From: Olegusella massiliensis
Lineage (GTDB): Bacteria > Actinomycetota > Coriobacteriia > Coriobacteriales > Atopobiaceae
Direction of reading: 5' to 3'
DNA: 64,000 nucleotides
Assembly (NCBI RefSeq): GCF_900078545.1
Contig: NZ_FLLS01000002.1
Span: forward strand, 1,435,404 to 1,499,403
Shown: piece by piece, positions 3,504-29,591 of the stretch
Numbering within the stretch: position 1 is the first letter of the stretch
Layout: every line of letters starts with the position of its first letter
Made by a program: the position numbers and the translations under genes
The notes under the pieces: model-generated
Database searches by the model: none
Told to the model about the DNA's origin: nothing
The model's input: only the letters and a program-made list of their open reading frames with translations

Positions 3504-3544
3504 TCATCTCTTGTGTGCGTCAATATCATCGTGGTTATAGGTGC

Positions 3545-4949: not shown

Positions 4950-4991
4950 TGCTAGAATGACATCAAGTCCAACGGCGAGAACGTTCTCGCC
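4950..4991 (+). promoter_or_regulatory. Extended -10 promoter and 18-bp palindrome ahead of ptsH
   Basis: TGCTAGAAT (TAGAAT at 4953-4958) matches an extended -10 element. Downstream at 4974-4991 lies a perfect 18-bp palindrome with half-site GGCGAGAAC and a central ACGT, just before the AAGGAG ribosome site of ptsH. A central CG dyad of this kind is common in LacI-family operators. It could equally fold as an RNA stem in the leader. No clear -35 element is seen. Confidence 0.5.
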
Positions 4992-5011
4992 TCTCATCTA
5001 AGGAGTCCAGT

Positions 5012-5284: not shown

Positions 5285-5323
5285 GCACATTTTGGCGCGC
5301 TTGCGCAGTTTGTGGCACATCAA

Positions 5324-5355
5324 AGCCCAGCACCAGTATGTGCTGGGCTTTTTGT
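5324..5355 (+). terminator. Rho-independent terminator after ptsH
   Basis: A 10-bp stem of AGCCCAGCAC and GTGCTGGGCT around a 6-base loop is followed directly by a T-run. It closes the ptsH transcript 32 bases before the tgt start region. Confidence 0.92.
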
Positions 5356-5378
5356 TGGTATTTTGTAGACAAGAATGA

Positions 5379-6515
<1,137 letters not shown>

Positions 6516-6690
6516 AAAGCAGCGCGATTGTTCTTAACTATTGTTTTCTTGTCAAAAAATAATGCAATAAATCAGCCGTTCGTAGCTCAATGTTGCTGTT
6601 CGAGGGGCTGCATTTGTCCTTGCGCCGTTTTATGTCTGCCAAGACTGGTAAAATGAGCTGGTTAAACTACTGGTAGTTCAGGAGATATAT

Positions 6691-8184: not shown

Positions 8185-9172
8185 CCACTTCGCGTCTGAG
8201 ATTAACTTTATGGGTCATCGCTTCCAGTTGTTGACCTTCTCGGGAATTTTGATAGTGCTATCAATCGTAGGCTTAATTGTTCGCGGCTTGGTCTTTGGTA
8301 TTGAGTTCCGCGGTGGTACTGAGATTGACTTCCAAAATACGGGCGATATTAGTATTGCTCAAATGCGCAGCGCACTTGAGGCAACAGGTGAGCAAAACCT
8401 TACTATTCAAACGGCGGTAACCGAGGGCGAGAAGGGCTTCCTTGTGCGCTCGGATGCGACCAATCCTACGGATGCAACGGCACATGCTGCGGCTGCTGCC
8501 GAGTCGCTCAAGCTGCCTAAGTCCTCCTATACGGTTACCACTATCGGTCCCGACTGGGGTGCTGATACGGTACGCTCCTCAAGCATTGCCTTTTTAGTGT
8601 CGCTGGTCGCCATCATTGCTTTTGTGTCCATCCGCTACGAATTTAAGATGTCTATTACAGCGGTGGCTTCTTTGGTGCATGACCTTGTCATTATTTTGGG
8701 TGTGTATGCGTGGACCCAGACACCCATTACCCCCAATGTGGTGGCTGCACTACTGACCGTTATGGGTTATTCGCTCTACGATACGGTTGTTGAGTTCAAC
8801 CGTATAAATGAGAACGCCAAGCGCGGTGGAGATGCAAACCACCGTACCTATTTCCAGATTACAAACTATTCGATTAACGAAGTGATTGTTCGCACCATCA
8901 ATACAACTATTACAACCATTGTGCCCATCATCGTAATGTATGCCATCGGTGGCACAACTCTGCGTGACTTTGCGTTTGCCATGCTTATTGGTGAATTGTT
9001 GGGTACCTACTCAAGCTTTGCTATCGCAAGCCCGCTGCTTGCGATTTGGAAGACTCACGAGCCTAAATGGCACAAGCTTGAAGAGCGCTATGGTGGCGCT
9101 GGGGCTGCAGTACGTATTGTCCAGCAGAATGAACGCGGAGCAGCTCACAGCTTTGCAAAGCGCGGGCTGTAG
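8177..9172 (+). CDS. secF: Protein translocase subunit SecF
   Basis: SecF is the membrane partner of SecD. The protein begins MRSHFASEINFMGHRF, with membrane segment 1 at about 17-38, then GIEFRGGTEIDF, the SecF signature. An exposed domain follows, then five membrane segments from about 135 that include TVMGYSLYDTVVEFNRINEN. ATG 8177 is preferred over upstream in-frame starts because it follows a GGGGG ribosome site and gives the family-typical N-terminus. It overlaps secD by 8 bases. The next gene starts 4 bases downstream, so secD, secF, the recJ fusion, rel and the MBL gene may form one long operon. Confidence 0.96.
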   Translation: MRSHFASEINFMGHRFQLLTFSGILIVLSIVGLIVRGLVFGIEFRGGTEIDFQNTGDISIAQMRSALEATGEQNLTIQTAVTEGEKGFLVRSDATNPTDATAHAAAAAESLKLPKSSYTVTTIGPDWGADTVRSSSIAFLVSLVAIIAFVSIRYEFKMSITAVASLVHDLVIILGVYAWTQTPITPNVVAALLTVMGYSLYDTVVEFNRINENAKRGGDANHRTYFQITNYSINEVIVRTINTTITTIVPIIVMYAIGGTTLRDFAFAMLIGELLGTYSSFAIASPLLAIWKTHEPKWHKLEERYGGAGAAVRIVQQNERGAAHSFAKRGL

Positions 9173-9175
9173 CCC

Positions 9176-12100
9176 ATGGGCGGCTTGGCGGGCAGCAGAT
9201 GCTGGCAGCTGCTGCAACAAGATAAAAAAGCAGAAGTCAGACTTATGTCTGAGTTGGGATTAGCACCTTTAGCAGCGCGTGTTTTGGCTGCTCGAGGTGT
9301 GAGTGACCCTGTTGAAGCACAAAGATTTTTGACTCCTTCTCTTGAACGTGACTGGTCCGATCCACTGTTGATTCCAGATATGGAAGAAGCGGTGCAGCGC
9401 ATCATGCGCGCCATCTCTGACGGTGAGTCAATCGCGGTTTTTGGTGACTTCGATGTGGATGGTATGTCGGCAGCAAGCGTTTTGGGCTTGGGCTTGCGTG
9501 CGCTTGGAGCACAGGTGCAAGCTTTTATTCCTGATCGCTTTACTGAAGGATATGGTCTTAGCAAAAATGCTTTGTTGCGCGTAGTTGAGGCATGTAAGCC
9601 TCAGTTGGTGGTAACTGTTGATAATGGCATTGCTTCGGCTGAAGAAGTAAAAGCTTTACTTGAGCACAATATTGATGTGGTGATTACCGATCATCACGAG
9701 CCTGCGGATTTGGTGCCAACGGGTGTTCCGGTGGTTGACCCCAAACTATCCGCTGACTGTCCGTCTCGAGATTTGGCGGGAGCAGGTGTTGCGCTCAAGC
9801 TCGTCTGTGAACTGGGTCGCCGATTGGGACAGCCACATTTGTGGCGCTCATTGACCGAGCTTGCCTGTCTGGGTACTGTTTCGGACATGATGGTGCTTCA
9901 GGGAGAAAATCGTGCCCTGGTGGCAGATGGTATTGAATGCATGCATCATTCTACGCGTCCCGGTTTGGCAGCATTGGCACAAATCGCCAAGGTAGACTTA
10001 TCGACGGTTGCTGCTGACGACCTGCCCTTCTCGATTATTCCGCGCCTTAATGCGGCAGGACGAATGGGTTCTACCGACATTGCTTTTAAGCTGCTTTTTA
10101 CCGACGATATTGAAGAAGCGAGTTTGCTTGCGGCTTCGCTGGAGCAGATCAATGAGGTTCGTCGCGAGACAGAATTTGCTATGTCCGAAGCGGCTCTCGC
10201 AGAAGCAGAACGTTGCTGGGATGGTGGCCGTGTTGTAGTAGTTGCAGGCGGAGACTGGCATGAGGGCGTCAAAGGTATTGTGGCCAGCCGTATCGTCAAT
10301 CACTATCACGTGCCAGCCATCGTATTTTCTTTGGTAGATGGCGAAGCACGTGGTTCGGGGCGTTCGGTTGGTACGGTTGATCTTTTTCATGCCGTTGAGC
10401 AGTGTGCTGATTTGACTATTCGTTTTGGTGGCCATGCAGGTGCTGTTGGTGTCACCGTTTCCGAAGACAAAATTGACGCTTTTCGCAAGCGGCTCTCTGC
10501 GGTACTCGCAAAACTTCCCCAGGAGCAATTTGAATATCGTAAAGAGGTCACGGCGCTTGTTGAGCTTTCTGAGCTCAATGTCGAGACGGTTGCCTCGCTT
10601 GAGGCACTGCAACCCTTTGGCCAGGGCAATAAAAAGCCCCTCTTTGCCGTGCGCGGTGTTTCGATGCGCGATCGCAAACGCTCGCGTAATGGCAAACATC
10701 TTTTGTTTATTGCAACAGATGGCTTTAATGAAGTTCCTGCTGTGATGTTTAATGCTCCCGAGTTGGAGCGTGCTGCTTCTACCGAAAGTATTGTTGATCT
10801 CGTATTTGAAACAAAAAATGAGACGTGGCAGGGTCGTACCAAAACCAAGCTGATGGTCAAAGATATTTTGTTTCGCGATCAACCAAGCCGCGGACCTGCG
10901 CCAGGCGAATCTCTCATACTTGAAGGATTTGATCCTCCAACGCCCAATCCTGCAGAGCATCGAGGCGAGTTGGCACAACTTGATTACGATGAGCTGACTG
11001 AGGTATTGGCAGCTGAGCTCATTGGCGAACACCAGCTCCTTCCTGCTCAGCGCGAAGCACTTGCCTGCTTGGCAAAAAAGCAATCGACGCTTGTGGTGAT
11101 GGCTACCGGTCGGGGAAAGTCACTTATCTTTCATGTGCATGCAGCGCGTGAAGCAGTTGCCTATCACAAGGCATCAGTTTTTGTTTATCCTTTGCGTGCT
11201 CTCGTTAACGATCAAGCTCGTCATCTTCAAGATGAGTTTGCACATATTGGTGTTGGTGTTCGCGTGCTTACGGGTGCGACACCCCAAGACAGGCGTGCAA
11301 CAGTTTGGTCGGAATTGGCAGATGGAAGTTGCGATATCGTCTTAACCACACCAGAGTTTTTGGCGATTCATACTGATCGCTTTGCGCAAATAGCGCGTAT
11401 CGGCTTTTTAGTGGTAGATGAGGCGCATCATGTGATGCAGGCCACATCAAATCGTCCCGCGTATGCAAAGTTCCCTGAAATTCGTCATGAATTAGCTCAT
11501 CCTACGGTGCTGGCTGTCACAGCTACTGCTCCACGAGAGGTTGCTTTGCAGATTCAAAATCTGTTAGGCATTAGCAGTGAAAACATCCTTATTGATAATG
11601 CTGTCCGTAAAAATCTCGAGTTGCTTGACTGTCGAGAGAAGCGTGACCGTGAGTTGGCTCTTGCCTCCCTTGTTGCAAAAGGGGAGAAGTGCATTATCTA
11701 TGTCAACTCGCGTGAGGAAAGCGTTTCTTTGGTACGCAAGCTCCGTCATATGACCGGCGAGCTAGCCGATCGCATTGCTTATTACAATGCAGGTCTTGAA
11801 CCGCGTGTTCGCGTCAAGGTTGAGCGGGCGTTTCGTGATGGACGGCTGTGTTGTATTGTCTCTACCAGTGCGTTTGGAGAGGGTGTCAATATTGGCGATG
11901 TGCGCCATGTCGTGCTCTACCAGTTGCCCTTTGGTCGCACTGAGTTCAATCAGATGAGTGGCCGTGTGGGTCGAGATGGACTCCCTGCTTATATTTGGCT
12001 GATGTTTTCTGCTCGAGATGCCTCGGTTAACGAGCGTCTCTTGGCTGCTGCTGCTCCCACGCGCGATGAGCTTAAAATGCTGTGGCGCGCGCTGCGTCTG

Positions 12101-12463
12101 CTGGAGCACACAAGTCACGACGACATTGTCCGTGTAAGTGATGAGGAGCTGGCAGCACAAGCTCGTCTGCAAGATGGGCGCTATGCGCTTGATGCGCAGG
12201 TTTCCGAGGCAGGAATTGCTGTTTTTGCTGAACTTGGTCTACTCCAACTAAGTAGTTACGGGCCCACGCGCGAAATTAAGCTTACAAGCAATCCACCGCG
12301 CATGAATTTGGCTCAGTCAGCCCGTTATGTTGAGGGCATCAGGGCTGCTGAGGACTTTGCAGAATTCCGCGAATGGGTTTTGCGTTGTGCACAAGCAGAG
12401 CTGCTTGATAGTATTAACAAACCAATTGTGCCAGGCTTTGGGCATGTAGTATGTGGTGGGTGA
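9176..12463 (+). CDS. recJ: RecJ exonuclease fused to a RecQ-like DEAH helicase
   Basis: The N-terminal half (about 25-570) is RecJ, a 5'-3' single-strand DNA exonuclease of the DHH family. It has DFDVDG at 91-96, VTVDNG, DHHEP at 172-176, a GSGRS-type DHHA1 segment and an OB-like domain (about 455-570). The C-terminal half (about 605-1000) is a superfamily 2 helicase. It has an unusual Walker A ATGRGKS (643-649), VYPLRALVNDQ, DEAHH (748-752), VTATAP, and a motif VI region reading QMSGRVGRDG. RecQ is the closest family by motif pattern. At 1095 residues it is about twice ordinary RecJ length. One frame runs unbroken across the join, so it is a real fusion and not two genes. It would couple unwinding to 5' resection in repair. 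Confidence 0.93.
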   Translation: MGGLAGSRCWQLLQQDKKAEVRLMSELGLAPLAARVLAARGVSDPVEAQRFLTPSLERDWSDPLLIPDMEEAVQRIMRAISDGESIAVFGDFDVDGMSAASVLGLGLRALGAQVQAFIPDRFTEGYGLSKNALLRVVEACKPQLVVTVDNGIASAEEVKALLEHNIDVVITDHHEPADLVPTGVPVVDPKLSADCPSRDLAGAGVALKLVCELGRRLGQPHLWRSLTELACLGTVSDMMVLQGENRALVADGIECMHHSTRPGLAALAQIAKVDLSTVAADDLPFSIIPRLNAAGRMGSTDIAFKLLFTDDIEEASLLAASLEQINEVRRETEFAMSEAALAEAERCWDGGRVVVVAGGDWHEGVKGIVASRIVNHYHVPAIVFSLVDGEARGSGRSVGTVDLFHAVEQCADLTIRFGGHAGAVGVTVSEDKIDAFRKRLSAVLAKLPQEQFEYRKEVTALVELSELNVETVASLEALQPFGQGNKKPLFAVRGVSMRDRKRSRNGKHLLFIATDGFNEVPAVMFNAPELERAASTESIVDLVFETKNETWQGRTKTKLMVKDILFRDQPSRGPAPGESLILEGFDPPTPNPAEHRGELAQLDYDELTEVLAAELIGEHQLLPAQREALACLAKKQSTLVVMATGRGKSLIFHVHAAREAVAYHKASVFVYPLRALVNDQARHLQDEFAHIGVGVRVLTGATPQDRRATVWSELADGSCDIVLTTPEFLAIHTDRFAQIARIGFLVVDEAHHVMQATSNRPAYAKFPEIRHELAHPTVLAVTATAPREVALQIQNLLGISSENILIDNAVRKNLELLDCREKRDRELALASLVAKGEKCIIYVNSREESVSLVRKLRHMTGELADRIAYYNAGLEPRVRVKVERAFRDGRLCCIVSTSAFGEGVNIGDVRHVVLYQLPFGRTEFNQMSGRVGRDGLPAYIWLMFSARDASVNERLLAAAAPTRDELKMLWRALRLLEHTSHDDIVRVSDEELAAQARLQDGRYALDAQVSEAGIAVFAELGLLQLSSYGPTREIKLTSNPPRMNLAQSARYVEGIRAAEDFAEFREWVLRCAQAELLDSINKPIVPGFGHVVCGG

Positions 12464-14830: not shown

Positions 14831-15610
14831 ATGTCTGAAGAAGAAAAGAAACGCGAAAGTTGTTGCGATGGTCATCATGAGGATGGTCACTGTTGTGGCG
14901 GTCATAGCCATGAGGACAGCTGCTGTTGCGGGCATCATCACCCTGCACCCAGTGATGGGGAAGATCAGGTTCGCATGTTTGTGGTGGGTCAGCTGCAGAC
15001 CAACTGCTATGCCTATATCTCACAAGGGGAGTGCCTTATTGTGGATCCTGGCGCATCAGGCGTAGGCATTGCCAAGCACTTAGAAGATGTACATATCAAA
15101 AATATTGTTGCGACCCATGGTCATGGTGATCATGTGGGCGGGGTCTTATCTCTTCAGCGTGTAACTGGTGCACGTTTCATGATGCACGAAGCTGATGTTG
15201 AACTTGCTTCACACGCAGGTGAGGAAAGTGAGCTAGGCCGTACATACGACAACAACGCTCCTGCTCCCAATCGGCTTTTGCATGAAGGGGATGTTATTGA
15301 GCTGGGCACAGCAAGCTTTCGTGTGATTGAAGCTCCAGGTCACACTCCTGGTGGCATTGTTTTGCTTGGTGAAGGTACAGCGCTTGGACTTGCATTTGTG
15401 GGTGATACCCTCTTTAAGGGCTCTTGCGGAAGGACCGACCTTGCAGGTGGTAATCGTGAGATTTTGATGCAAACCCTGGCACGTCTCAAAAAGCTTGTGC
15501 CCGCACACACAACCCTTTTGTGTGGACATGGGGACATGACAACGATGGAAGACGAACTTGCAAACAATCCTTGGTTGCAAGATACCGAGGTAAGCGACGG
15601 TATTCAGTAG
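14831..15610 (+). CDS. MBL-fold hydrolase with Cys/His-rich N-terminal tail
   Basis: A metallo-beta-lactamase fold hydrolase of the glyoxalase II-like group. The core (about 50-250) has NCYAY, VDPGA, the metal motif THGHGDH, APGHTPG, VGDTLF and LCGHG. The N-terminal 40 residues are unusual: three short clusters combine Cys-Cys pairs with Gly-His-His or His-x-His, ten Cys or more in total, with acidic spacers. This tail looks like a metal store or metal-delivery arm for the di-metal site, which is my inference. Substrate is unknown; hydroxyacylglutathione is unlikely unless the host makes a suitable thiol. The start is 2 bases from the rel stop, so it is translationally coupled to rel. Confidence 0.88.
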   Translation: MSEEEKKRESCCDGHHEDGHCCGGHSHEDSCCCGHHHPAPSDGEDQVRMFVVGQLQTNCYAYISQGECLIVDPGASGVGIAKHLEDVHIKNIVATHGHGDHVGGVLSLQRVTGARFMMHEADVELASHAGEESELGRTYDNNAPAPNRLLHEGDVIELGTASFRVIEAPGHTPGGIVLLGEGTALGLAFVGDTLFKGSCGRTDLAGGNREILMQTLARLKKLVPAHTTLLCGHGDMTTMEDELANNPWLQDTEVSDGIQ

Positions 15611-17833: not shown

Positions 17834-17854
17834 CCGAGATGAGGAATGGCTGCA

Positions 17855-18616
17855 ATGCAAAACATCACAAAACTCCACTTAGCTATGCAGTTTCCAGAGA
17901 ATGTGAAGATAGGATCGCCATTAGCAAGTGGGTATGGACCTTTTCTCCAAGGTGTTCTCATGGAGCAAATAGATTCTTCATATGCGTCTTTTTTGCATAG
18001 TCAACCGTTCAATCCGTATAGTATCTACTGTGAACTTGATAGACAACATCAGGTACTCAACTGGAACATTTCGACCCTTACAACCGAAGCATCTGAGCAG
18101 ATTATCAATCCAGTTGTCAAGCTTGATGAAGTGTGTCTTCGTGGTACAAATGAAGTACTACCAATCATTGAGAAGACTGTCTCAACAATTACAACCAAAG
18201 AGATTACAGACCTCATTAATACTGCTAAAAATAAAAAAATAAAGGTGCGATTTGTTACTCCTACGGCATTCAAAAGTGGGGGTGAATATGTGATTATGCC
18301 TACAGTACGTCTGATATTCCAAAATTTGCTTATGCATTATACCCAAGTGTACGAAAGTGGGCATGAGGTCGATTCGGAGACACTGGCCTACATTGAAAAG
18401 AATGTTCGTATCACATCGTATGAATTGCGCACACAATATTTTTCACATGCCACAGATGGCGGAAGAAGAATACCCGCTTTTGTCGGCACTATAACCCTGA
18501 GCTTCAGGGGTCCATATATGCTTGTTGGGCTTGCAAATATGTTGTTGAAATTTGGTGAGTATGCAGGTATTGGAATCAAAACTTCAATGGGAATGGGAGG
18601 CATGCAATGCCTATAG
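17855..18616 (+). CDS. cas6: CRISPR endoribonuclease Cas6
   Basis: Cas6 cuts the CRISPR precursor transcript within each repeat and leaves an 8-base 5' handle on crRNAs. The protein (about 253 residues) has the RAMP-type arrangement. The C-terminus has an FxGxxxLxFxG-like stretch (FVGTITLSFRG) and a Gly-rich loop (GIGIKTSMGMGG), the Cas6 hallmark. The predicted target repeat carries a TCCCC/GGGGA hairpin ending just before the handle. ATG 17855 has GAGG ten bases ahead; ATG 17846 is also in frame but lies one base from that site. It overlaps cas10 by 10 bases and leads the operon. Confidence 0.9.
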   Translation: MQNITKLHLAMQFPENVKIGSPLASGYGPFLQGVLMEQIDSSYASFLHSQPFNPYSIYCELDRQHQVLNWNISTLTTEASEQIINPVVKLDEVCLRGTNEVLPIIEKTVSTITTKEITDLINTAKNKKIKVRFVTPTAFKSGGEYVIMPTVRLIFQNLLMHYTQVYESGHEVDSETLAYIEKNVRITSYELRTQYFSHATDGGRRIPAFVGTITLSFRGPYMLVGLANMLLKFGEYAGIGIKTSMGMGGMQCL

Positions 18617-20958
18617 AAGGCAGATCTCTTGACTGTGAGTTGGGAACATATGAGCAGATGATTGATGAACTGAGAATCCCGTTGATTTTTGGTGCTCTTT
18701 TGCATGATATTGGAAAAGTTATATATCGAGCTGGCTCTAATCAAGGCAACCATTCAAAACTGGGCGCAGATTTCCTTTTAGATGAGATAGCACCACAGAA
18801 CACAGACTACGATGGTATTTTTGGTAGGCAAATTATCGAGCAAGTGCGTTACCATCATGCAGATGCGCTTGTTAAAGCGAAAATCCCTGACGATTCCTTG
18901 GCATATATAACGTACTTCGCTGACAATATTTCTGCTGGTATGGATCGTAAAGAAGAAGGTTCAGAGAGTGGAGGTGCAGTTTTTGATAGAGCTGTAAAGC
19001 TTAGAAAAATTTTCAATATACTTAATGGACATCATGACGATAATACAATTGAGCATGAAGATTACAACAAAATCCGTGAGGATCTTAAGCGAAATCTTAT
19101 CCACATAGATATTAGCTGGCGACAAGTGAATTCTCTCATCAACTTGCTTGAGGCTACTGTTGATAAAATTCCTTCTTCTACAAAAATGTCACAGCTTGTA
19201 GATGTTTCCTTATTCGATCATCTGAAAACGACGGCAGGTATTTCAAGTTGTATTTTCGAATATCTTGCGGAACAGAACATCAAGAATTATCGCTCAGCGC
19301 TCTTTGATAAGGCGACATCTAAGACGTTTTATTCTAAGCCAATGTTTTTACTCTATTCCTGTGATATGAGTGGTATTCAGGACTTTATTTATACCATTAG
19401 TGGGTCTGGTGCTTTAAAGCAGTTACGTGCCAGAAGCCTCTATCTCGAGATGCTTCTTGAACATATAACGGACGAGTTACTTGCGCGTCTTGGGCTTAGT
19501 CGTGCCAATCTTCTTTACACAGGTGGAGGGCATGCTTATCTTTTACTGCCCAACACATTGAGGGTAAAGAAAACATTACAAGTATACAAAGAAAAATTGA
19601 ATGAGTGGTTTTTGAAGCAATATCGGACTGATCTTTATCTAGCGAATGCATGGGTTGAATGTAGCGGTGACGATCTTGCCAATAAGGACGAAAGTAGTGA
19701 ACGTTATCGCAATCTATATCGAAATCTCTCTAGCAAGCTTTCTGCACAGAAGGCATCACGATATTCAGCATCTACTATTCGAAGCCTTAATTTCTCGGAT
19801 AGAAAAGGTGACCACAGTCGCGAGTGTACTGAATGTCATCGCTCTGATTTAGATATAGAGAATGGAAAATGCCCTCTCTGTCTTGCGCTTGGGAGAATTT
19901 CTTCGCAACTCATAGCGAAGGATGTTTTTGTTGTCTCTAAAGTCATTGACGATAACACTGAACACAAATTTGCACTACCGCTACCGTTTGGTTATTCACT
20001 GTGTATGTACTCAAAGGATGAATATATAGAAAAGCAACCAACTGTTCGTCGTGTCTATACAAAAAATAGTTGGAATACTGGGATTGATTATGCGACGCAT
20101 ATTTGGATGGGTGACTACACGGCACCATATAACAAAGAATTGGGCATTGCCGATTATGCAAACAATGGAGCTACGTTTTCAAATGGTGATTCTACAAACG
20201 GGGAACTAGGAATTAAGCGCCTTGGCGTATTGAGGGCAGATGTAGATAATCTGGGGGCAACCTTCGTCAACGGACTTCCAGATGAAAAAGTTTCTCTTAG
20301 TCGAACATCTACTTTGAGTCGAGCACTTAGTTATTTTTTTAAATACCAGATTAATGAGGTTCTAAAAAGAGGGGACTATCGAGTACAAATTATCTATTCG
20401 GGTGGTGATGATTTATTTATTATTGGTAATTGGAGCGATATTATGCATGCCGCTACGGATATTCATGCTGCGCTTGATGAGTTTACAGGCAACGGTACAC
20501 TTACCATAAGTGCAGGTATAGGCATGTTCGACGCAAAATATCCTATTGCAAGCATGGCTGAAGAAACTGGTGCACTTGAGGATGCTGCAAAACTATACGT
20601 GCAACCAGATAATGGCAAAACAAAAAATGCAATTGCACTATGGTCTCAAGAATCTGTTTTCAGCTGGGAAGAATTCATTCAGGAAGTAGTTCCTTTAGAA
20701 GCAAAAATTCATACGTTCTTTGACGCAAATGAAAAAGGTAAAGCATTTATCTATAGTCTTGTAGCGTTGCTGCGCGATATCCGAAATCCTATTTCACTAC
20801 CAAGACTTGCCTATCTATTAGCTCGTAGTTTTGAAGATTATGCTGATGGCAAAGACAACAGTCGTGAGTTGTTTGATTTAGCAATGGACAAGACAAAATG
20901 CCGGTATTTGCTTGTTGCATTGGAATGGTATGTATATAGCGTTCGTGAGAAAGGATAG
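18607..20958 (+). CDS. cas10: Type III-A Cas10/Csm1 with HD and GGDD palm
   Basis: The large subunit of the Csm complex. When target RNA is bound, its HD domain cuts single-strand DNA and its Palm domain makes cyclic oligoadenylates (family knowledge). The 783-residue product has an HD motif His33-Asp34 (LLHDIGK). A first palm-like region follows (about 230-330). A zinc site has C407-x2-C410 and C422-x2-C425. The catalytic GGDD lies at 599-602 (YSGGDDLF), and a C-terminal helical domain (about 680-783) ends the protein. Both active sites look intact. csm2 follows after 3 bases. Codon use is AT-rich compared with rplT upstream, a sign of different origin. Confidence 0.95.
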   Translation: MPIEGRSLDCELGTYEQMIDELRIPLIFGALLHDIGKVIYRAGSNQGNHSKLGADFLLDEIAPQNTDYDGIFGRQIIEQVRYHHADALVKAKIPDDSLAYITYFADNISAGMDRKEEGSESGGAVFDRAVKLRKIFNILNGHHDDNTIEHEDYNKIREDLKRNLIHIDISWRQVNSLINLLEATVDKIPSSTKMSQLVDVSLFDHLKTTAGISSCIFEYLAEQNIKNYRSALFDKATSKTFYSKPMFLLYSCDMSGIQDFIYTISGSGALKQLRARSLYLEMLLEHITDELLARLGLSRANLLYTGGGHAYLLLPNTLRVKKTLQVYKEKLNEWFLKQYRTDLYLANAWVECSGDDLANKDESSERYRNLYRNLSSKLSAQKASRYSASTIRSLNFSDRKGDHSRECTECHRSDLDIENGKCPLCLALGRISSQLIAKDVFVVSKVIDDNTEHKFALPLPFGYSLCMYSKDEYIEKQPTVRRVYTKNSWNTGIDYATHIWMGDYTAPYNKELGIADYANNGATFSNGDSTNGELGIKRLGVLRADVDNLGATFVNGLPDEKVSLSRTSTLSRALSYFFKYQINEVLKRGDYRVQIIYSGGDDLFIIGNWSDIMHAATDIHAALDEFTGNGTLTISAGIGMFDAKYPIASMAEETGALEDAAKLYVQPDNGKTKNAIALWSQESVFSWEEFIQEVVPLEAKIHTFFDANEKGKAFIYSLVALLRDIRNPISLPRLAYLLARSFEDYADGKDNSRELFDLAMDKTKCRYLLVALEWYVYSVREKG

Positions 20959-20961
20959 GTA

Positions 20962-21366
20962 ATGACAGAAAAAAATCCGATTATATTGCTGAAATGCAAA
21001 AATGGTAATGCGCTCAACAGTAAGAACTTTGCTGATTTTGCCGAAAATCAAATAGCGCCAAATGGGACGCTTAAGTATTCAAGGCTAACCACATCAAAGC
21101 TTCGAAGTATCTACGGAATGATTACGAATATCTATTCAAAGATTAATACCTGCGATAGCTTCAAGGAGTATTTGTCAGATTTACAGCACCTCAAGGTTAA
21201 GATGGCGTATGAGTGCGGTCGAGATGATGTCGTTAAAGACTTTATCAAAGGTACATTTCTTTTGGCCGCGATCGACTATATCAAAGATTATGACCAGTTC
21301 ATTCTTTATTGCCGCTATGCGGAGAGTTTAGTTGCATATTTTAAATTTTATGGTGGAAAGGAATAG
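20962..21366 (+). CDS. csm2: Csm2, small helical subunit of the Csm complex
   Basis: Csm2 forms the inner filament (belly) of type III-A effector complexes and contacts the crRNA-target duplex. The 134-residue product is mostly helical. It contains KLRSIYGMI near the middle, a LKVKMAYECGR segment and a YFKFYGGKE C-terminus, consistent with Csm2 in size, pattern and position between cas10 and csm3. The family is poorly conserved, so the call leans on gene order. It starts 3 bases after cas10 and ends 5 bases before csm3. Confidence 0.87.
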   Translation: MTEKNPIILLKCKNGNALNSKNFADFAENQIAPNGTLKYSRLTTSKLRSIYGMITNIYSKINTCDSFKEYLSDLQHLKVKMAYECGRDDVVKDFIKGTFLLAAIDYIKDYDQFILYCRYAESLVAYFKFYGGKE

Positions 21367-21371: not shown

Positions 21372-22043
21372 ATGAGTTATACCAAGATTAAAATTCAAGG
21401 GATTATTGAAGTAAAAACTGGCCTACATATTGGTGGAGATGATTCGTTCAGCGCAATTGGGGCAATCGATTCGCCTGTAGTACGCGATCCAGTTAGTCGG
21501 ATGCCAATTATTCCAGGTTCTACACTCAAGGGTAAATTACGCTCATTACTTGCGCGCGATAAAAATACTGTGCCAGCAAAGGGAACGCCAGGCTTTGAAA
21601 ATGATTGCGCTGAAATCAAGCGGTTGTTTGGATCGGCAGCAAAAGATAGTAATAGTGATGGTACGGGAATCCAAATGTCGCGCCTGCAATTCTCAGACTG
21701 TTTTCTTGTAAATAAGGAAGACGGGCCATCCAGTATTTTTGAAGTTAAATTCGAAAACACAATAGATCGTCTTACAAGTGTCGCGAATCCACGTCAAATA
21801 GAGCGAGTGGTAAGAGGAACAAAGTTTGGCATGGAAATTATCTACAACGTGGAAGATCCCGAATATCCCGAACAAGTTGTAGAGGACTTTGCCAATATTG
21901 CGATCGCTTTTAGACTCTTACAAAACGATTATCTAGGTGGTGGAGGCACACGTGGTAATGGCAGGATAGCCATTAAAGACCTTACTGCACAAGTAGTTAC
22001 AGGTGATACATCATTCCCCGTTCCTGAGCTAAAGCTGGATTAG
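21372..22043 (+). CDS. csm3: Csm3, backbone RAMP subunit with target-RNA nuclease site
   Basis: Csm3 is present in several copies along the crRNA and cuts bound target RNA at 6-base intervals. In the 223-residue product the catalytic aspartate is Asp33, in GAIDSPVVRDP, the same number as in studied Csm3 proteins. IIPGSTLKGKLRSLLAR follows, the conserved RAMP loop. Near the C-terminus a Gly-rich motif reads YLGGGGTRGNGR. Size and motifs are typical, and the nuclease site is intact. It lies 3 bases before csm4. Confidence 0.95.
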   Translation: MSYTKIKIQGIIEVKTGLHIGGDDSFSAIGAIDSPVVRDPVSRMPIIPGSTLKGKLRSLLARDKNTVPAKGTPGFENDCAEIKRLFGSAAKDSNSDGTGIQMSRLQFSDCFLVNKEDGPSSIFEVKFENTIDRLTSVANPRQIERVVRGTKFGMEIIYNVEDPEYPEQVVEDFANIAIAFRLLQNDYLGGGGTRGNGRIAIKDLTAQVVTGDTSFPVPELKLD

Positions 22044-22046: not shown

Positions 22047-22976
22047 ATGGATACAAAAATTGTAAAGCTTAGTTTCGAGGCACCAGTGCATTTTGGCAAG
22101 GGACGTTTATCAGATGCCTCATATGTTTGCGATGCTGGAACTATTTTTAGTGCTCTTTATATAGAAGCACTAAAAATGGGGTGTGCTGATTCGTTGCTCA
22201 CTGCTGCCACTTCCGGAAATCTTACTATTAGTGATGCTTTTCCCTATATTGGCAAAACTCTATATTTACCAAAACCAATGGTGAGTTTTGTAGAAAGCGG
22301 AACACAGCAACAAAACCATGACTCTCGGGAAAAGAAAGCCCATAAGAAACTTGCGTATATTCCGGCTGTAAAGTATCAAGATTTTTTTACAGGTAGCCTT
22401 GACGCACTGCAAGAGATAGATACGTTCAACCGAGGCATAGGTTCCCATAGCCTAATGACCAAGGTAAATCTTACATATGAGCATAAAAAAGAGGCGGATC
22501 CCTACCATGTGGGCAGTTTCGTATTTGCAAATAATGCGGGAATCTACTTCATCATTAGAGGTTCTTATGATTTGGCACCGTTGTTAGAATCTTTGCAGTA
22601 TTCAGGCATTGGCGGAGAGCGTTCCAGTGGCTATGGACGCTTCAAATATGGATTCATTGATGATGATCCAATTGTCGCGGTGAGTGAGCAAATTTGTGAT
22701 GGGCAAAAATTTGTTCTTCTTTCCTCGGCAGCACCTCGAAACGATGAACTTGATGATGAACTTCTTAATGAAGCTCAGTATAAATTGGTAAGACGCGGTG
22801 GATTTATTCAGTCATCGTCACACCATTTGCTTCAACAGAAAAAACGAGACTTCTATGTTTTTGCGGCTGGCTCAATATTTGGTTGCAAATTTAGCGGTGA
22901 TGTATTTGATGTCAATAACACCGAAGGCGCTCATTCAGTCTATCGTTATGCTCGTGCATTATGGTTGGCGGTGTAG
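22047..22976 (+). CDS. csm4: Csm4, crRNA 5'-handle binding RAMP subunit
   Basis: Csm4 holds the 5' handle of the crRNA and joins Cas10 to the backbone. The 309-residue product has an N-terminal RAMP fold with APVHFGKGRLSD and a Gly-rich loop, GIGGERSSGYGRFKYG (about 190-205), typical of Csm4. Length is in the family range. It follows csm3 by 3 bases and precedes csm5 by 3 bases. No catalytic residues are expected. Confidence 0.92.
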   Translation: MDTKIVKLSFEAPVHFGKGRLSDASYVCDAGTIFSALYIEALKMGCADSLLTAATSGNLTISDAFPYIGKTLYLPKPMVSFVESGTQQQNHDSREKKAHKKLAYIPAVKYQDFFTGSLDALQEIDTFNRGIGSHSLMTKVNLTYEHKKEADPYHVGSFVFANNAGIYFIIRGSYDLAPLLESLQYSGIGGERSSGYGRFKYGFIDDDPIVAVSEQICDGQKFVLLSSAAPRNDELDDELLNEAQYKLVRRGGFIQSSSHHLLQQKKRDFYVFAAGSIFGCKFSGDVFDVNNTEGAHSVYRYARALWLAV

Positions 22977-22979: not shown

Positions 22980-24386
22980 ATGGTCATGAAAAATTATCGA
23001 CTAACTCTTACAACAAAGGGCCCCGTGCATATTGGTAACGGAGATAGAATTGGCAAAAAAGATTATTTCCGTCACAACGGCAGGATTGCAGTCCTCGATG
23101 TACCTTCTTTTATTAGCTGCTTAAATGAGCGGCAATTGAAGGAATACTGTGATTTCCTTGAGACTAAATCAGCGCTGAATCTCGAAGACTTTCTGAGAAA
23201 CGATAAGTCATTACGGTTTGCTGCGGAAAAATCTATACAGTACTGTCTTGATATGGGATTCCCCGCCCGCCCCATTGATGTGCAATCCTTTGTAAAAGAT
23301 TCCGAGGGGCAGCCATACATCCCTGGGTCAAGTGTCAAAGGTATGTTGAGAACGGCATTACTTACAAATTTAATTTTGGAAAGTGATAGAAAAAAGCTTG
23401 AGTCCATATATTGGGAATGCCCCAATATAGCTAGCAATATTATTGAGGGGAAATTACTACGCAACTCGTTATCTGGTAGCAGTGTCACGAATGATGCAAC
23501 AAGCGATATCATGCGCTTTATTTCGATATCTGACTCTGATTCACTAAGTTTAGATTCCTTAGTGTTTGTAAAGCAATATGATGAGTTTGCAAAGACGGAT
23601 GGTGGCTGGCACAAACCTAATATTGGAAGGCGCATCGATAGGTCAGGAAATGAGCTAAATATCTATCGTGAGTGTTTGCGTCCAGGTACTGATATTAATT
23701 TTGTTTTGAATATAGATGACAGAATAAATGAATATATTCCTATAGTATCGCTTGACGTCGATAGACTCTTATCATTATTTGAGCGTCAAAATAGCCTTTA
23801 TCGCGAACGCTATTTAGACAAATTTGATATGAGCTTCGATACAACTGATGACCATCGCATTCATACTGTAGATAACAAACCAAAAAGATGTTGCTATGTG
23901 ATACAAGATGGTCCTTTTATGGGTCAGCAATGTAGAAATCGAGCTGTGGATGGAACTGATTACTGCAACAAGCATGTGGATAAGGCGGTAGAAAAAAGAG
24001 CGAATAGCAAATCAGTGACTTGCTATCTCGGCGGTGGGATTGGGTTTAATAGCAAAACAATAGCAGCAGCATTATTCAAGGACGAAAATAGATACTTAAA
24101 GGCTGTTTCACAGGAGCTCTATAGCCAGTTCCCGACCAAACTGGATACATCTGCTAGTTTTTTCCATAACAAAGAGCTTAGTCATCAGGTGAACAAAGCT
24201 GGATTTAAACCAAAACAATTTCAAGCTATTTATAGTAAGGGTCGCCTCAGAAAGGCAAAGAATGATCCTCGTCATTGGGAAGATGTTGAGCTTGGAGTTG
24301 CTCCTCATACTCTCAAACTTGGGATATTTGATGGTAAAAAATATCTTATGGGTAAATGTGAACTACGTATTGAGGAACAGCGATGA
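22980..24386 (+). CDS. csm5: Csm5, cap RAMP subunit with Cys3His insert
   Basis: Csm5 caps the 3' end of the crRNA filament and helps crRNA maturation. The 468-residue protein has the N-terminal RAMP signature GPVHIGNG, then YIPGSSVKGMLRTALL (about 111-126). The C-terminal RAMP region ends LKLGIFDGKKYLMGKC. It is longer than most Csm5 because of an insert near 300-340. The insert carries Cys304/Cys305, Cys318, Cys329 and His332, spaced C-x12-C-x10-C-x2-H with a GxxC and DYCNKH context. That pattern resembles small zinc-binding knuckles of the DUF5763 type. The insert adds a likely metal site and perhaps RNA contacts (inference). A later in-frame ATG at 22986 is also possible. It overlaps csm6 by 4 bases. 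Confidence 0.93.
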   Translation: MVMKNYRLTLTTKGPVHIGNGDRIGKKDYFRHNGRIAVLDVPSFISCLNERQLKEYCDFLETKSALNLEDFLRNDKSLRFAAEKSIQYCLDMGFPARPIDVQSFVKDSEGQPYIPGSSVKGMLRTALLTNLILESDRKKLESIYWECPNIASNIIEGKLLRNSLSGSSVTNDATSDIMRFISISDSDSLSLDSLVFVKQYDEFAKTDGGWHKPNIGRRIDRSGNELNIYRECLRPGTDINFVLNIDDRINEYIPIVSLDVDRLLSLFERQNSLYRERYLDKFDMSFDTTDDHRIHTVDNKPKRCCYVIQDGPFMGQQCRNRAVDGTDYCNKHVDKAVEKRANSKSVTCYLGGGIGFNSKTIAAALFKDENRYLKAVSQELYSQFPTKLDTSASFFHNKELSHQVNKAGFKPKQFQAIYSKGRLRKAKNDPRHWEDVELGVAPHTLKLGIFDGKKYLMGKCELRIEEQR

Positions 24387-25597
24387 AAAATTTATTCTCA
24401 CCTGTTGGAACAGCAGATCCTATCACCTTGCTTGGTGACGGCCCTCTGTTACATATTGTGCGTTGGTATAAGCCTGATAACATCACCTTGTTTCTTTCTC
24501 CAAAAATAATGAAATACCAGGAAAAAGATGCACGATATACGCGTGCAATAAAATTGCTTTGCGATAAAACAGGGCAGCGTATACCTGAAATTAAATTGGT
24601 CGTATCTGATAATAAAGAAGTGCACCGCTTTGACATTTACATCGAGGAGTTTCGTAAATGCCTTCGTGAGATAGCAAAAAAACATGATGACGAAATGATA
24701 CTTGCAAACGTCTCCTCAGGTACACCTGCTATGGAAGAAGCACTAGTTGCTCTTTCAGCAATTGGAGAGTTTGACATGGAATTATTGCAGGTTGCAACTC
24801 CGCGTAGAGATAGCAATAAGAAGGAAGATCGAGAAAACCCTGATGCATACGAACTAGAAGTATTATGGGAATTAAATCCCGATAATGAAGGCAGCGCCCC
24901 GTGTCGTATAGAGGAAACTCAACTTCCCAACCATAAAGACCGCTTGTTGAGAGTTAATATCGCAGAACTAATCAAAAGCTATGACTATACAGCTGCATTG
25001 AAACTGGCAAAGCAGCTCAACAAGGGGCAAAACATTTACGGAGATCTCAAAAATCTTGTTGAACAAATAAACCTGCGATGTGATGGTAATAAGCTGGTAA
25101 ACTATTTACGGGTTATGGAAGTGCGCCTTGAACAACAAAATTATGTTGAATTTTGTCGGTCGTTGACCCCTGCACTCTTTGAAACAGCGAAGAGAATACT
25201 CGCAGAATCTTTTGATATATCGCAGTTTCTTATCCCGGGTACCAATAAGCTTGATTTAGAAAAGGTACATAGAAACAGAGTAGTAGATCAAGTTATTGGC
25301 AGAGATTTACATGAAGGTTCTCCAAACCATCTTGCAAGTTGGCATTTGATTAAGTTATTTAAGCAGTACTGTGGAAATCAGAAGGCATCAGTTAAGCTTG
25401 ACAGACTCAGAGATTTTGAATCTGGCTGCAGAAATACTTTAGCGCATGAGATAACCAAAGTTGATAAAGCCACGTTCGAAAAAGATGGAAGAATGAAGTT
25501 AGATGAGGTAATGCGTTACTTATTTGAGCTTAATGATATTAAACCTGGGTGGTTTAGAAGAAGGAATGATGATCTTCTCGAATTGCTGCGGAAGTAG
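24383..25597 (+). CDS. csm6: Csm6, CARF-HEPN ribonuclease activated by cyclic oligoadenylate
   Basis: Csm6 is the standalone RNase of type III-A systems; its CARF domain senses cyclic oligoadenylate made by Cas10 and its HEPN domain then cuts RNA non-specifically. In this 404-residue product the CARF region (about 1-170) has SPVGTADPI at the start and NVSSGTPAMEEAL near 110, the ligand-binding loop. The HEPN motif is Arg350-x4-His355 (RNTLAH) near the C-terminus, intact. It overlaps the csm5 stop by 4 bases. The size of the cyclic oligoadenylate it senses cannot be told from sequence. No separate ring nuclease is in the locus, so self-limiting ligand cleavage by the CARF domain is plausible. 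Confidence 0.92.
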   Translation: MKNLFSPVGTADPITLLGDGPLLHIVRWYKPDNITLFLSPKIMKYQEKDARYTRAIKLLCDKTGQRIPEIKLVVSDNKEVHRFDIYIEEFRKCLREIAKKHDDEMILANVSSGTPAMEEALVALSAIGEFDMELLQVATPRRDSNKKEDRENPDAYELEVLWELNPDNEGSAPCRIEETQLPNHKDRLLRVNIAELIKSYDYTAALKLAKQLNKGQNIYGDLKNLVEQINLRCDGNKLVNYLRVMEVRLEQQNYVEFCRSLTPALFETAKRILAESFDISQFLIPGTNKLDLEKVHRNRVVDQVIGRDLHEGSPNHLASWHLIKLFKQYCGNQKASVKLDRLRDFESGCRNTLAHEITKVDKATFEKDGRMKLDEVMRYLFELNDIKPGWFRRRNDDLLELLRK

Positions 25598-25624: not shown

Positions 25625-26635
25625 GTGCCCTATCTCTATTTAATGGAGAGTAACGCACAAGTCGGATTTGTGGATAATCAAATAACCATTAAAACAAGTG
25701 ATGGGGACAGGCCTCGTGCTATCCCAATCGCGTCTGTTGAGGGTATATGTGTGTTCGGACAGCCCCAACTTTCAACTCACCTTATTCGTGCATGCATATC
25801 GAAAAATATTTCGGTAGGATATTACTCGGAAGATGGGCGTTATTTTGGCAATATCAGTTCATCCCAGAATATCAATCCTGTGAGGCAAAAGCGGCAAGTT
25901 TATTTAACAGATAACAGAGATTTTTGCCTTGCGTGGTCCAAACGTATTATTTCTGCCAAGATTCAAAACAGCTTGATGCTGCTTACTTCAATGGATGGTG
26001 TATATAAGTTCAATGATGACGAACTTAATGGTATTAGACATTCACTCGAACAGATAGACCTTGCTGACAGTGTAGATATGGCTTTGGGTTTTGAGGGCAA
26101 TGCCGCTAAGTGTTATTATTCTTGTCTCTCAAAGCTTGTGACTAATGATGCATTTGCTTTCAAGGGAAGAAGTTCACGGCCGCCAAAAGACGCGTTTAAT
26201 TCGATGCTTTCATTTGGTTATACGCTTCTTTATCGCAATATTGCTGGTGCTATTGAACGGCATGGCCTTCATCCATATTTTGCCTTCATGCATAAGCTGC
26301 ATGCTGGGCACATTGCGCTGGCATCTGATTTGATAGAGGAGTATCGCGCACCACTGGTGGATCAAACAGTGCTTTCCTTGGTGAATAATGGAGAAGTTGA
26401 AATCGATGGGTTTTATACTAATGATGCTGGTTCAATTTATATGACGCGAGATACATCAAGAATACTCACCAATAAGATTTCTGATGTTATTACACAGACA
26501 CGTGTTTATCTTGCAGATTATGGAGATAGAAAAACTTATGGTTTTCAAGCAATGCTTGATAAGAAGATATCCAGTGTTGTAGCAGCTATAGAGTGTTGCG
26601 ATGTTGATCAATACCATCCTTTTGTGTGGAAATAG
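25625..26635 (+). CDS. cas1: CRISPR integrase Cas1
   Basis: Cas1 with Cas2 inserts new spacers at the leader end of the array. The 336-residue protein has an N-terminal beta domain (about 1-85). The C-terminal catalytic domain shows GFEGNAAKCYY with Glu157, HAGHIAL with His229, and SDLIEEYRAPLVD from about 234, the metal-binding trio region. The GTG start is chosen because GAGGAGGTAAGG stands just ahead, the strongest ribosome site in the locus. No reverse transcriptase domain is fused. cas2 follows by 7 bases. No cas4 is present. Confidence 0.95.
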   Translation: MPYLYLMESNAQVGFVDNQITIKTSDGDRPRAIPIASVEGICVFGQPQLSTHLIRACISKNISVGYYSEDGRYFGNISSSQNINPVRQKRQVYLTDNRDFCLAWSKRIISAKIQNSLMLLTSMDGVYKFNDDELNGIRHSLEQIDLADSVDMALGFEGNAAKCYYSCLSKLVTNDAFAFKGRSSRPPKDAFNSMLSFGYTLLYRNIAGAIERHGLHPYFAFMHKLHAGHIALASDLIEEYRAPLVDQTVLSLVNNGEVEIDGFYTNDAGSIYMTRDTSRILTNKISDVITQTRVYLADYGDRKTYGFQAMLDKKISSVVAAIECCDVDQYHPFVWK

Positions 26636-26642: not shown

Positions 26643-27002
26643 GTGGCTGTGAGCATTTGTAAGGAGTCACATAGTTCTCCCGGGAGACAGCAAGGAGCAT
26701 CACCTTCAACTAATAAATATTATGTGCTCATTCTTTTTGATATTTCGGATCCTAAAAAGGGACGTCAGCTTGTTAAGCTCCTAAAAGGTTATGGAACAAG
26801 AATTCAGAAATCGGTGTTTGAAGCGCAAATTACTAAGTCTCAAGTGAAGGATCTAATTACACATATTCGTAATCTTATGTCATCAAAGAATCACTTCAAT
26901 CCTAATGACAATGTTAGAATATATGAGGTTGCGGGTCATTGTAACTTGACAGTTTTTGGTGATTATAATGAATGGATACTTGAAGAAAATATTTTTATAT
27001 AG
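26643..27002 (+). CDS. cas2: Cas2 with N-terminal extension
   Basis: Cas2 is the dimeric bridge of the Cas1-Cas2 spacer integration complex. The ferredoxin-like core begins at about residue 26 with YYVLILFDISD and continues with GRQLVKLLKGYGTRIQKSVFEAQ, then VRIYEVAG. About 25 polar residues precede the core. That is unusual and may be real or may reflect a later start. GTG 26643 and GTG 26649 both follow AGGAG at 26634-26638. No better start before the core is obvious, so I give the longest. It ends 61 bases before the first repeat. Confidence 0.9.
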   Translation: MAVSICKESHSSPGRQQGASPSTNKYYVLILFDISDPKKGRQLVKLLKGYGTRIQKSVFEAQITKSQVKDLITHIRNLMSSKNHFNPNDNVRIYEVAGHCNLTVFGDYNEWILEENIFI

Positions 27003-27063
27003 CAATTTTTCTATGAACCTGAAAACCTACAGTTTAACTGACATTTCGTCTATACTCTATACC
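27003..27063 (+). promoter_or_regulatory. Short AT-rich CRISPR leader
   Basis: The 61 bases between the cas2 stop and the first repeat are AT-rich, with TATACT at 27051-27056 as a possible -10. The degenerate last repeat at the far end supports this as the leader side. Array transcription could also read through from the cas operon. Confidence 0.6.
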
Positions 27064-28528
27064 GTTGATTGACTTAGATCCCCGAGAGGGGACGGAAACA
27101 ACCAATAGGCTAGAGCACCCGTGCGGGTAGCTATAGTTGATTGACTTAGATCCCCGAGAGGGGACGGAAACAAGCTGTGTAAGCTTCCAAAGCTGTGATG
27201 ATACGAGGTAGATGTTGATTGACTTAGATCCCCGAGAGGGGACGGAAACTTTGCCCCACACGTAGGGCAACCCGCGATATAATCGCGCCCAGTTGATTGA
27301 CTTAGATCCCCGAGAGGGGACGGAAACTTAAAAAGAGTTCTGGTATCGACTTGCGCGATTCAGTTGATTGACTTAGATCCCCGAGAGGGGACGGAAACTT
27401 CCCAAGCGATGGCGGCCGTGCTAACAATGGCCTCTTGTTGATTGACTTAGATCCCCGAGAGGGGACGGAAACTCGTCGATACGGTCCCCAAAAGTCTTTT
27501 CGATCTTTTCAGGTTGATTGACTTAGATCCCCGAGAGGGGACGGAAACAACAACTTTTCGCGTTCACTGTCGGTGAACCTACAACTAGTTGATTGACTTA
27601 GATCCCCGAGAGGGGACGGAAACTATGGTTAATCGACATCTCGTGGTGATATTTCTAATTCCACAGTTGATTGACTTAGATCCCCGAGAGGGGACGGAAA
27701 CTGTTTTGTTCGTGGTCGGCTATTTTCGGTCACTCGCGCTACAGTTGATTGACTTAGATCCCCGAGAGGGGACGGAAACTCGGACTTGAACGCTTCCTCT
27801 TCTACGCAGTCCTTGCACGTTGATTGACTTAGATCCCCGAGAGGGGACGGAAACGTGTTACCGTGCCAATCCCATTGCGATACGTTGGTTCCAGTTGATT
27901 GACTTAGATCCCCGAGAGGGGACGGAAACATGCACGTCAAAAATCACTTCATCAGTGATTAAGTAGGGTTGATTGACTTAGATCCCCGAGAGGGGACGGA
28001 AACTAGGGTATGGGGGGTCTTTTGTGCAGAAGGCCAAGCCCTAGTTGATTGACTTAGATCCCCGAGAGGGGACGGAAACACGTAAGTATCGAACGCGCTA
28101 AAAGCCGCGTTCGCTGTAGTGTTGATTGACTTAGATCCCCGAGAGGGGACGGAAACGTGTTACCGTGCCAATCCCATTGCGATACGTTGGTTCCAGTTGA
28201 TTGACTTAGATCCCCGAGAGGGGACGGAAACATGCACGTCAAAAATCACTTCATCAGTGATTAAGTAGGGTTGATTGACTTAGATCCCCGAGAGGGGACG
28301 GAAACTAGGGTATGGGGGGTCTTTTGTGCAGAAGGCCAAGCCCTAGTTGATTGACTTAGATCCCCGAGAGGGGACGGAAACACGTAAGTATCGAACGCGC
28401 TAAAAGCCGCGTTCGCTGTAGTGTTGATTGACTTAGATCCCCGAGAGGGGACGGAAACAATGTGTCTTCTGAAATGCCCGTGAACCTTGCTGTTGTTGAT
28501 TGACTTCGATCCCCGAGAGGGGACAAAC
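27064..28528 (+). CRISPR. CRISPR array, 20 repeats of 36 bases and 19 spacers
   Basis: The repeat starts GTTGATTGAC, has a TCCCC-GAGA-GGGGA hairpin in the middle and ends GGACGGAAAC. The 8-base handle would be ACGGAAAC. Repeats start at 27064, 27136, 27214, 27292, 27363, 27437, 27513, 27588, 27666, 27744, 27819, 27894, 27968, 28044, 28121, 28196, 28270, 28346, 28423 and 28495. Spacers are 35-42 bases. The first 19 repeats look identical. The last one (28495-28528) has an A-to-C change and lacks two G, marking the old end. Spacers 11-14 equal spacers 15-18, so 15 are unique. Repeat orientation matches the cas genes. Confidence 0.99.
27855..28458 (+). repeat. Perfect tandem duplication of four spacer-repeat units
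   Basis: Bases 27855-28156 (302 bases: spacers 11-14 with their repeats) are repeated without change at 28157-28458 (spacers 15-18). I compared all four spacer pairs and saw no difference. Unequal recombination between identical repeats explains it. The absence of changes suggests a recent event. Confidence 0.97.
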
Positions 28529-29591
28529 TTTTTGACTGATTTGGCTTGTTTATAGTTTTTGGCATTTAGGGAAAATGTATTTGATGATATTTTTTGTATA
28601 GGCCCTCGATATATTTCCAGATGTAACCTTAAGCTGTTAAAAAGCAGACTGCATGCAGCCTCTCAACACGCTACGAGTTACGGTGCAGCTGCAACATGAG
28701 AAAAGAGTTCGCGATTCATCAGTTTTATTGGAATTGGGTTCATAATGCATCATTGACCCAAAAATTATCAAGCATTTTTTGAAGCAAGAGGTGATTGAGG
28801 AGTCTTTCTTGCTTGAATAGATGCTCCAAGCTTCGACGCCTCAAACGATAGATGGTTCGTTTGTCGAACTGCTTACCGAAAGATGGTTCGTTTGTCGAAC
28901 TAGAGGAAAATCTGACCTGCGTTTTATGCTTGCCGACTTCGAAACGCGAACCATCTGTGGCGCGTGTCATCTGCCATCTGTGGTTTGTGTTCCACCGGCG
29001 CTCCAGTGGCTGCGTGCGTAAGCATATACGCCGAACACGCATTTTCCCCATGCTAAAAATAGGGACAAAAAATCGCCTCCCTGTGGCTACGTTGTGAACC
29101 CACCCATAATAGGTGGGTGCTCTCAGCGCCTTTTCCAGCTTCCTCAACAACGGAGGATTCCTGTACTGGAAACGCTATGCGAGCTCCCTCAAAAACGCTT
29201 GTCGGTTCACCCATTCTGTGCCACAGGGGGACGACACCTTTATTATCGTTGACCGTTGGAATAATTCCAGTCTTGACTTGCGTTGTGAGAGCGGGAAAAT
29301 TGAGAGTGCATTGCAAAAGCACTCTTAGGACATTTTGCTGCAATGACAAAGCAATATCTTCGGATAATAAAAACCCGCCATAAAGCAAAACTATTCATAA
29401 TGCAAAGCTATCGTGCAGCTGCTACAGCTCGCTGTCACGTAGTATACCGTCGCGTTTCTTTTTGATTTGCTTTCCTGCTTCCCATTTTTATGATTGTGTA
29501 GCTTTCAGTTACAATGCCTAGATGTATTTGATTGCGAATCCAACTTTGGGGTGCGGGCGTCCGTCCGGCAAAACCCTAGTGGGGAGGTGTC
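28529..29591. other. About 1 kb without a credible gene between CRISPR and the next CDS
   Basis: This stretch holds an AT-rich run after the last repeat and dispersed repeat copy A2 (28850-28960). A hairpin of ACCCACC and GGTGGGT lies at 29098-29118. About 250 bases (29119-29390) are open on both strands in several frames, but no frame has a ribosome site or a family I recognise. It may be a decayed element or a spacer between the acquired locus and the core genome. Confidence 0.6.
28850..28960. repeat. Dispersed repeat A, copy 2
   Basis: Second copy of the element at 15929-16040, same orientation. AGATGGTTCG recurs at 28881, GTCGAAC occurs twice, and the shared GACCTGCG and GCCGACTTCGAA core is present. 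The unit ends GCGAACCATCTGTGG, whose CGAACCATC is the reverse complement of the leading GATGGTTCG, so a fold-back is possible. Confidence 0.75.

Follow-up and report, generated by a model that had tools for sequence, protein, structure and literature searches.

A Csm5 protein of Coriobacteriales, an order of gut bacteria, carries a real, conserved, lineage-specific insert, a 29-residue Cys3His knuckle that closely resembles the tail at the C terminus of the host NusA. Its gene lies in the window, the whole 64,000-nucleotide stretch of DNA that was analyzed (G000:C2:1435404-1499403, within a genome of 1.8 Mb whose named relatives belong to Coriobacteriales and Coriobacteriaceae). The best explanation overall, to which we assign a probability of roughly 40%, is that Csm5 captured a knuckle of the host lineage and uses it as a tethered docking module. 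The surprising part is the likeness to the NusA tail, which the preliminary description of this DNA had missed.

The forward strand of the window encodes a complete type III-A locus, with the gene order cas6-cas10-csm2-csm3-csm4-csm5-csm6-cas1-cas2 followed by a CRISPR array. The genes upstream of csm5 are cas6 (17846-18616; TIGR01877), cas10/csm1 (18607-20958; TIGR02578, 684 bits), csm2 (20962-21366; TIGR01870), csm3 (21372-22043; TIGR02582), and csm4 (22047-22976; TIGR01903). Those downstream are csm6 (24383-25597; TIGR02672, 376 bits), cas1 (25625-26635; TIGR00287), and cas2 (26643-27002; TIGR01573). The array (27063-28531) consists of 20 repeats of about 36 nt (GTTGATTGACTTAGATCCCCGAGAGGGGACGGAAAC), the last of which is degenerate. 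It includes a perfect 300-bp tandem duplication (27819-28118 and 28121-28420), in which four repeat-spacer units occur twice. The gene order of a related locus, L016, is the same as in the window. Another related locus, L017, encodes an unusually long Cas10 (1058 aa; 3386-6562) and an unusually long Csm4 (452 aa; 7643-9001), and has no Csm6 directly after Csm5.

The csm5 gene (22980-24386, forward strand) adjoins csm4 and encodes a protein of 468 aa that caps the RNA-targeting effector complex of type III-A CRISPR defense. The protein scores 87.3 bits against TIGR01899, above the curated cut-off of 38.3. Its predicted structure can be superimposed on that of Mycobacterium tuberculosis Csm5 (8x5d_N) with a Z score of 28.0 and an rmsd of 2.7 over 337 aligned residues. 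The family model, the fold, and the neighboring csm4 together confirm the earlier assignment of the protein as Csm5 of a type III-A operon. Three known Csm5 structures, from M. tuberculosis (8x5d), S. thermophilus (6ifk), and S. epidermidis (8do6), match the fold with Z scores of 23-28 and share with the window protein the operon position, a Gly-rich motif, and a C-terminal MGKC region. However, none of the known Csm5 proteins compared contains a Cys3His insert, and the window Csm5 is about 90-130 aa longer. One solved Csm5 in the PDB (9zs2_J) is also unusually long, with 559 aa, and its profile match is confined to the N-terminal region.

The knuckle is located in a flexible insert directly N-terminal of the Gly-rich YLGGGxGF motif. 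The insert begins with a variable linker (approximately residues 283-303; 23826-23888), in which residues 287-300 have pLDDT values below 50. The knuckle proper spans residues 304-332 (23889-23975) and is followed by a second linker and helix start (approximately residues 333-346; 23976-24017), where DSSP assigns a helix to residues 333-342 of the model. The Gly-rich RAMP motif YLGGGIGFNSKT (residues 349-360; 24024-24059) is common to ordinary Csm5 and is also conserved in clostridial Csm5 that lack a knuckle. Both linkers vary in length among homologs and are rich in Gly, Ser, and Asp in several of them.

The segment RCCYVIQDGPFMGQQCRNRAVDGTDYCNKH occurs in Csm5 as had been described, and the Cys3His cluster is present. 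The spacing originally given, C-x12-C, was wrong, because the count began from the wrong one of two adjacent cysteines. When all nine full-length Csm5 proteins of the knuckle type from the order are aligned, C304 is invariant. C305 was rejected as a ligand: its position varies among Q, A, R, and G. The first ligand is therefore C304 and the spacing is C304-x13-C318-x10-C329-x2-H332. One homolog (L010) has a shorter first spacing, C-x9-C.

The four ligands C304, C318, C329, and H332 are invariant in all nine proteins, which come from four families of Coriobacteriales, so that the residues proposed earlier as ligands, C305 apart, are indeed conserved in close homologs. The rest of the insert is poorly conserved. 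Only 6 of its 64 columns (residues 283-346) are invariant, compared with 83 of 404 elsewhere in Csm5, and pairwise identity falls from 49% in the remainder to 39% in the insert. The six invariant columns are the four ligands, D298, and G315, an enrichment in Cys and His with a hypergeometric p value of 7.6e-4. Conservation of the ligands exceeds chance expectation. The idea of a motif that is confined to one species or has decayed was also considered and was rejected, given the invariance across nine genomes. We are highly confident that the insert is a real metal-binding knuckle, and its metal is very probably zinc.

TIGR01899 matches proteins in 10 of 397 genomes of Coriobacteriales. The knuckle is present in nine of these and absent in one (L012, in genome G306), which represents a second kind of Csm5 within the order. 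L012 groups with Csm5 of Lactobacillales, which makes it a separate arrival of type III-A in the order. When the knuckle was excised and a tree of 74 Csm5 sequences calculated, the nine proteins that bear it grouped in a single clade with a support of 100/100, nested among Csm5 mostly from Bacillota. All collected Csm5 sequences were scanned for the pattern, and none of the other 65 proteins of the tree had the knuckle. The knuckle was thus probably gained once. The simplest history suggested by these sequences is that a Bacillota-like system entered the order and underwent one knuckle gain, with no loss in the sample.

Among 149 genomes spread over the class, Csm5 was found only in the window's genome. 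A plasmid search returned distant Csm5 only, and no Csm5 relatives were found in viral contigs. In the literature searched, we found no Csm5 with a zinc or knuckle insert. The earlier remark that no Csm5 with this insert had been described holds for that literature and for the other Csm5 examined.

The isolated segment of 45 aa was modeled with AlphaFold2 together with 42 natural knuckles. The three ligand-bearing blocks are predicted with pLDDT values of 92, 90, and 88. The bridge pairs 303-321 and 307-317 recur in the fragment model and in the full-length model. The register of the predicted hairpin, as read from the pairing, would place C304 beside C318, and H332 begins a helix in the model. 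The predicted knuckle is compact and, as far as can be judged, the models show no failure of the ligands to converge. The models show the knuckle as an autonomous predicted fold, while the linkers on either side are of low confidence in the full-length model.

This arrangement bears on the role of the insert. Small zinc knuckles commonly serve a structural role only, and the knuckle could be a zinc staple that merely stabilizes a long loop in the Csm5 of this lineage, where, its ligands aside, no part of the protein is less conserved than the insert. However, the variable, low-confidence linkers on both sides indicate that the core is not braced, and the knuckle resembles tethered tails of NusA, RpoC, and bL21, described below. 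We consider a purely structural role decidedly improbable. A compact knuckle on flexible linkers beside the Gly-rich motif fits a tethered interaction module better than a brace.

The Csm5 knuckle profile matches exactly two proteins of the window's genome at E<=10, Csm5 itself and NusA (E = 2.3e-6). This NusA, identified by its Pfam domains, has 419 aa, is encoded upstream of infB, and carries the knuckle at its C-terminal tail (HRCEYVGPTGIQCRNMARPGARYCGIH). Here and in nearly all members of the order, the NusA knuckle follows an acidic linker; in this genome it is encoded outside the window (G000:C2:11295-11390, reverse strand; L116:1453-2712). It appears to be unremarked in the literature searched. 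Across the order, the profile finds matches in 363 of 397 genomes, and every non-Csm5 match inspected is NusA. Two genomes, G272 and G311, contain extra matches; those inspected are NusA, and G311 has two NusA-like copies. In the reciprocal search, a NusA profile recovers Csm5 at E = 5.2e-6. Of 99 genomes of the class, 96 have a match to the NusA-derived profile, as do 90 of 198 from the phylum. A control set comprised 48 genomes that encode ordinary Csm5 and belong almost entirely to other phyla; only four of these give a match at E<=0.01, and two reach E<1e-3.

The tail of NusA in Coriobacteriia and other Actinomycetota has the same ligands as Csm5 and the core C.Y[VI]...G..RCRN.A...S.[YF]C..H. 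The two knuckles differ in position and in spacing. The NusA knuckle constitutes a C-terminal tail with the spacing C-x9-C. The Csm5 knuckle is internal, 136 residues from the C terminus, and usually contains a four-residue GPxx insertion that expands the spacing to C-x13-C. In sister orders within the class, RpoC terminates in a tandem pair of knuckles (L187, L188, L193, L220, L221) and bL21 in a single one (L189, L190, L191, L198). Throughout a large bacterial class, NusA, RpoC, and bL21 have in common a knuckle that has drawn little notice. The residues C, G, C, C, and H are invariant in alignment A2, which comprises the Csm5 knuckles, and in alignment A3. Alignment A4 was gathered by pattern, unlike A2; its invariance exists by construction and is not counted.

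The similarity to these proteins is graded. Csm5 knuckles score on average 39 bits with same-order NusA, 34 bits with NusA of other orders, 31 bits with RpoC, and 29 bits with bL21. The reverse profiles give the same ranking, with same-order NusA first, NusA of other orders second, and RpoC third. Csm5 and Coriobacteriales NusA also share the elements C.Y[VI] and RCRN.A, whereas RpoC and bL21 have CxA[VI]. The profile kinship with NusA is good evidence that the two knuckles have a common origin but falls short of proof, given that the module has only 29 residues and a compositional bias of the lineage could contribute. We regard it as probable that the Csm5 knuckle is homologous to the NusA type.

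The alternative is convergence on an easily evolved C-G-C-G-[YF]-C-H knuckle, with the Csm5 insert derived from elsewhere, for example from a phage protein. The scatter of this knuckle type over unrelated families is consistent with such an origin. Several observations speak against it: Csm5 with the knuckle forms a clade restricted to a lineage in which NusA also ends in one, the element C-x-Y-[VI]...RCRN-x-A is common to the two proteins and differs from the CxA[VI] of RpoC and bL21, the profile scores are graded to match with same-order NusA highest, and only two proteins of the window's genome are matched at all. Convergence seems rather unlikely.

The families over which the type is scattered are diverse. 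Weak Pfam matches among 42 knuckles include TRM13 CCCH (39 of 42), DUF5763 (22 of 42), WRC (21 of 42), and GcrA (6 of 42). A model of halophile GvpO matches 34 of 42, and families of phage terminase small subunits and HNH proteins also appear. Elsewhere in the phylum, a short protein resembling a BMC shell protein begins with a similar knuckle (L200, L201). The occurrence of similar knuckles in BMC shell, terminase, HNH, and GvpO-type proteins indicates that the kind is generic, and a shared partner is not implied. DUF5763, TRM13 CCCH, WRC, and zf-C3Hc3H share the ligand pattern of the Csm5 knuckle, and the window Csm5 falls below the curated cut-offs of all four. The knuckle had been likened to DUF5763 (PF19067), a comparison that stands in part. 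Five of the nine Csm5 knuckles match that family weakly (best E value 8.9e-5) and the type does occur in unrelated proteins, but neither the window Csm5 nor its segment matches DUF5763 at E<=1. No paper on DUF5763 was found.

Searches of PDB sequences with the knuckle, by phmmer and by profile, returned no meaningful match. Only one structural neighbor exceeds a Z score of 2, the sigma-interacting domain of GcrA (5yix; Z 3.1 over 37 residues, Foldseek E value 9.7), solved in complex with domain 2 of sigma70. GcrA is known to bind sigma domain 2 through this domain (PMC7403470). Its likeness to the Csm5 knuckle is below significance, and neither the structural nor the Pfam match to GcrA is significant alone. 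GcrA proteins for a profile comparison were found in neither of the two genomes tried. Taken with NusA and RpoC, the GcrA matches make transcription-related docking the first role to test.

A scheme that would accommodate these observations is as follows. An ancestral Coriobacteriales Csm5, nested among Csm5 of Bacillota, would have gained a NusA-type knuckle once, inserted on flexible linkers in the loop directly before the Gly-rich motif. Descent of the knuckle from NusA itself is suggested by the sequence comparison and, for a module 29 residues long, is not provable. The knuckle would keep the end of the complex where Csm5 sits close to some partner that the NusA tail also reaches. This partner might be RNA or a protein of transcription or translation, and RpoC and bL21 might reach it with the same knuckle in the sister orders. 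Docking of this kind would let the RNA-guided complex meet nascent transcripts more readily. That the knuckle docks either on RNA or on some protein that belongs to the gene-expression machinery is, at somewhat less than even odds, what we tentatively propose.

The knuckle could instead be a plain RNA grip that binds the 3' end of the crRNA or the 5' end of the target RNA and alters affinity or crRNA length without a protein partner. It directly precedes the Gly-rich RAMP motif, the net charge of Csm5 knuckles ranges from 0 to +4 with a mean of +2, and NusA, RpoC, and bL21, which have the same knuckle, all act on RNA. The window's own knuckle, however, has a net charge of about zero, the NusA knuckles are situated in acidic tails, and long disordered linkers are more in keeping with a tether than with a fixed contact to RNA. 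A simple RNA grip is plausible but rather unlikely.

Recruitment of a trimming nuclease such as PNPase or RNase R, a role put forward in the preliminary description, has a precedent in S. epidermidis, where a flexible C-terminal segment of Csm5 (residues 310-320) binds and stimulates PNPase (PMC9762709). PNPase is also encoded in the window's genome. The S. epidermidis segment, IDR2, is likewise flexible and recruits a host protein, but it belongs to another loop and no knuckle has been described in it (PMC9762709). The S. epidermidis motif LGAGTGF lies just before residue 282, which places the PNPase-binding segment C-terminal of the Gly-rich motif, whereas the knuckle is N-terminal of it. 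In addition, a nuclease partner alone leaves the kinship with the tails of NusA, RpoC, and bL21 unexplained. We judge nuclease recruitment improbable. An effect on crRNA trimming or length, also raised in the preliminary description, likewise gained no support and is retained as a rival.

Within the docking proposal, the NusA-like module suggests, and does not prove, that the Csm complex docks on the gene-reading machinery of the host. One form of it, with the RNA polymerase elongation complex as the direct docking site, is unlikely. Equally unlikely in our estimate is the more specific proposal that the Csm complex of Coriobacteriales is physically coupled to transcription, with the NusA-tail copy in Csm5 occupying or sharing the NusA docking site on the elongation complex. 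A complex coupled in this way would ride with nascent transcripts, or be handed them, rather than diffuse to them. Two considerations weigh against the docking proposal as a whole. In type III complexes, Csm5 is at the end that is distal to RNA polymerase on a nascent transcript. The Csm complex of T. thermophilus is tethered to RNA polymerase only through the transcript and makes no direct contact with it (PMC6611850).

Type III CRISPR immunity requires that the target be transcribed, yet the T. thermophilus work is the only direct test of contact between Csm and RNA polymerase, and it found none. Its authors suggested that type III systems thus need no adaptation to the polymerase of each host (PMC6611850). 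If true, docking through the knuckle would represent the opposite case, a transferred immune complex that adapted to the gene-expression machinery of one host lineage. The knuckle would provide a mutable handle of 29 residues on such an adaptation.

Two other open reading frames on the forward strand of the window have unusual sequence features. The first (9176-12463) has 1095 aa and, judging by its sequence, looks like a fusion of a RecJ-type nuclease with a RecQ-like helicase. The second (14831-15610) encodes a putative hydrolase of the metallo-beta-lactamase fold with an N-terminal tail that is very rich in Cys and His (ESCCDGHHEDGHCCGGHSHEDSCCCGHHH).
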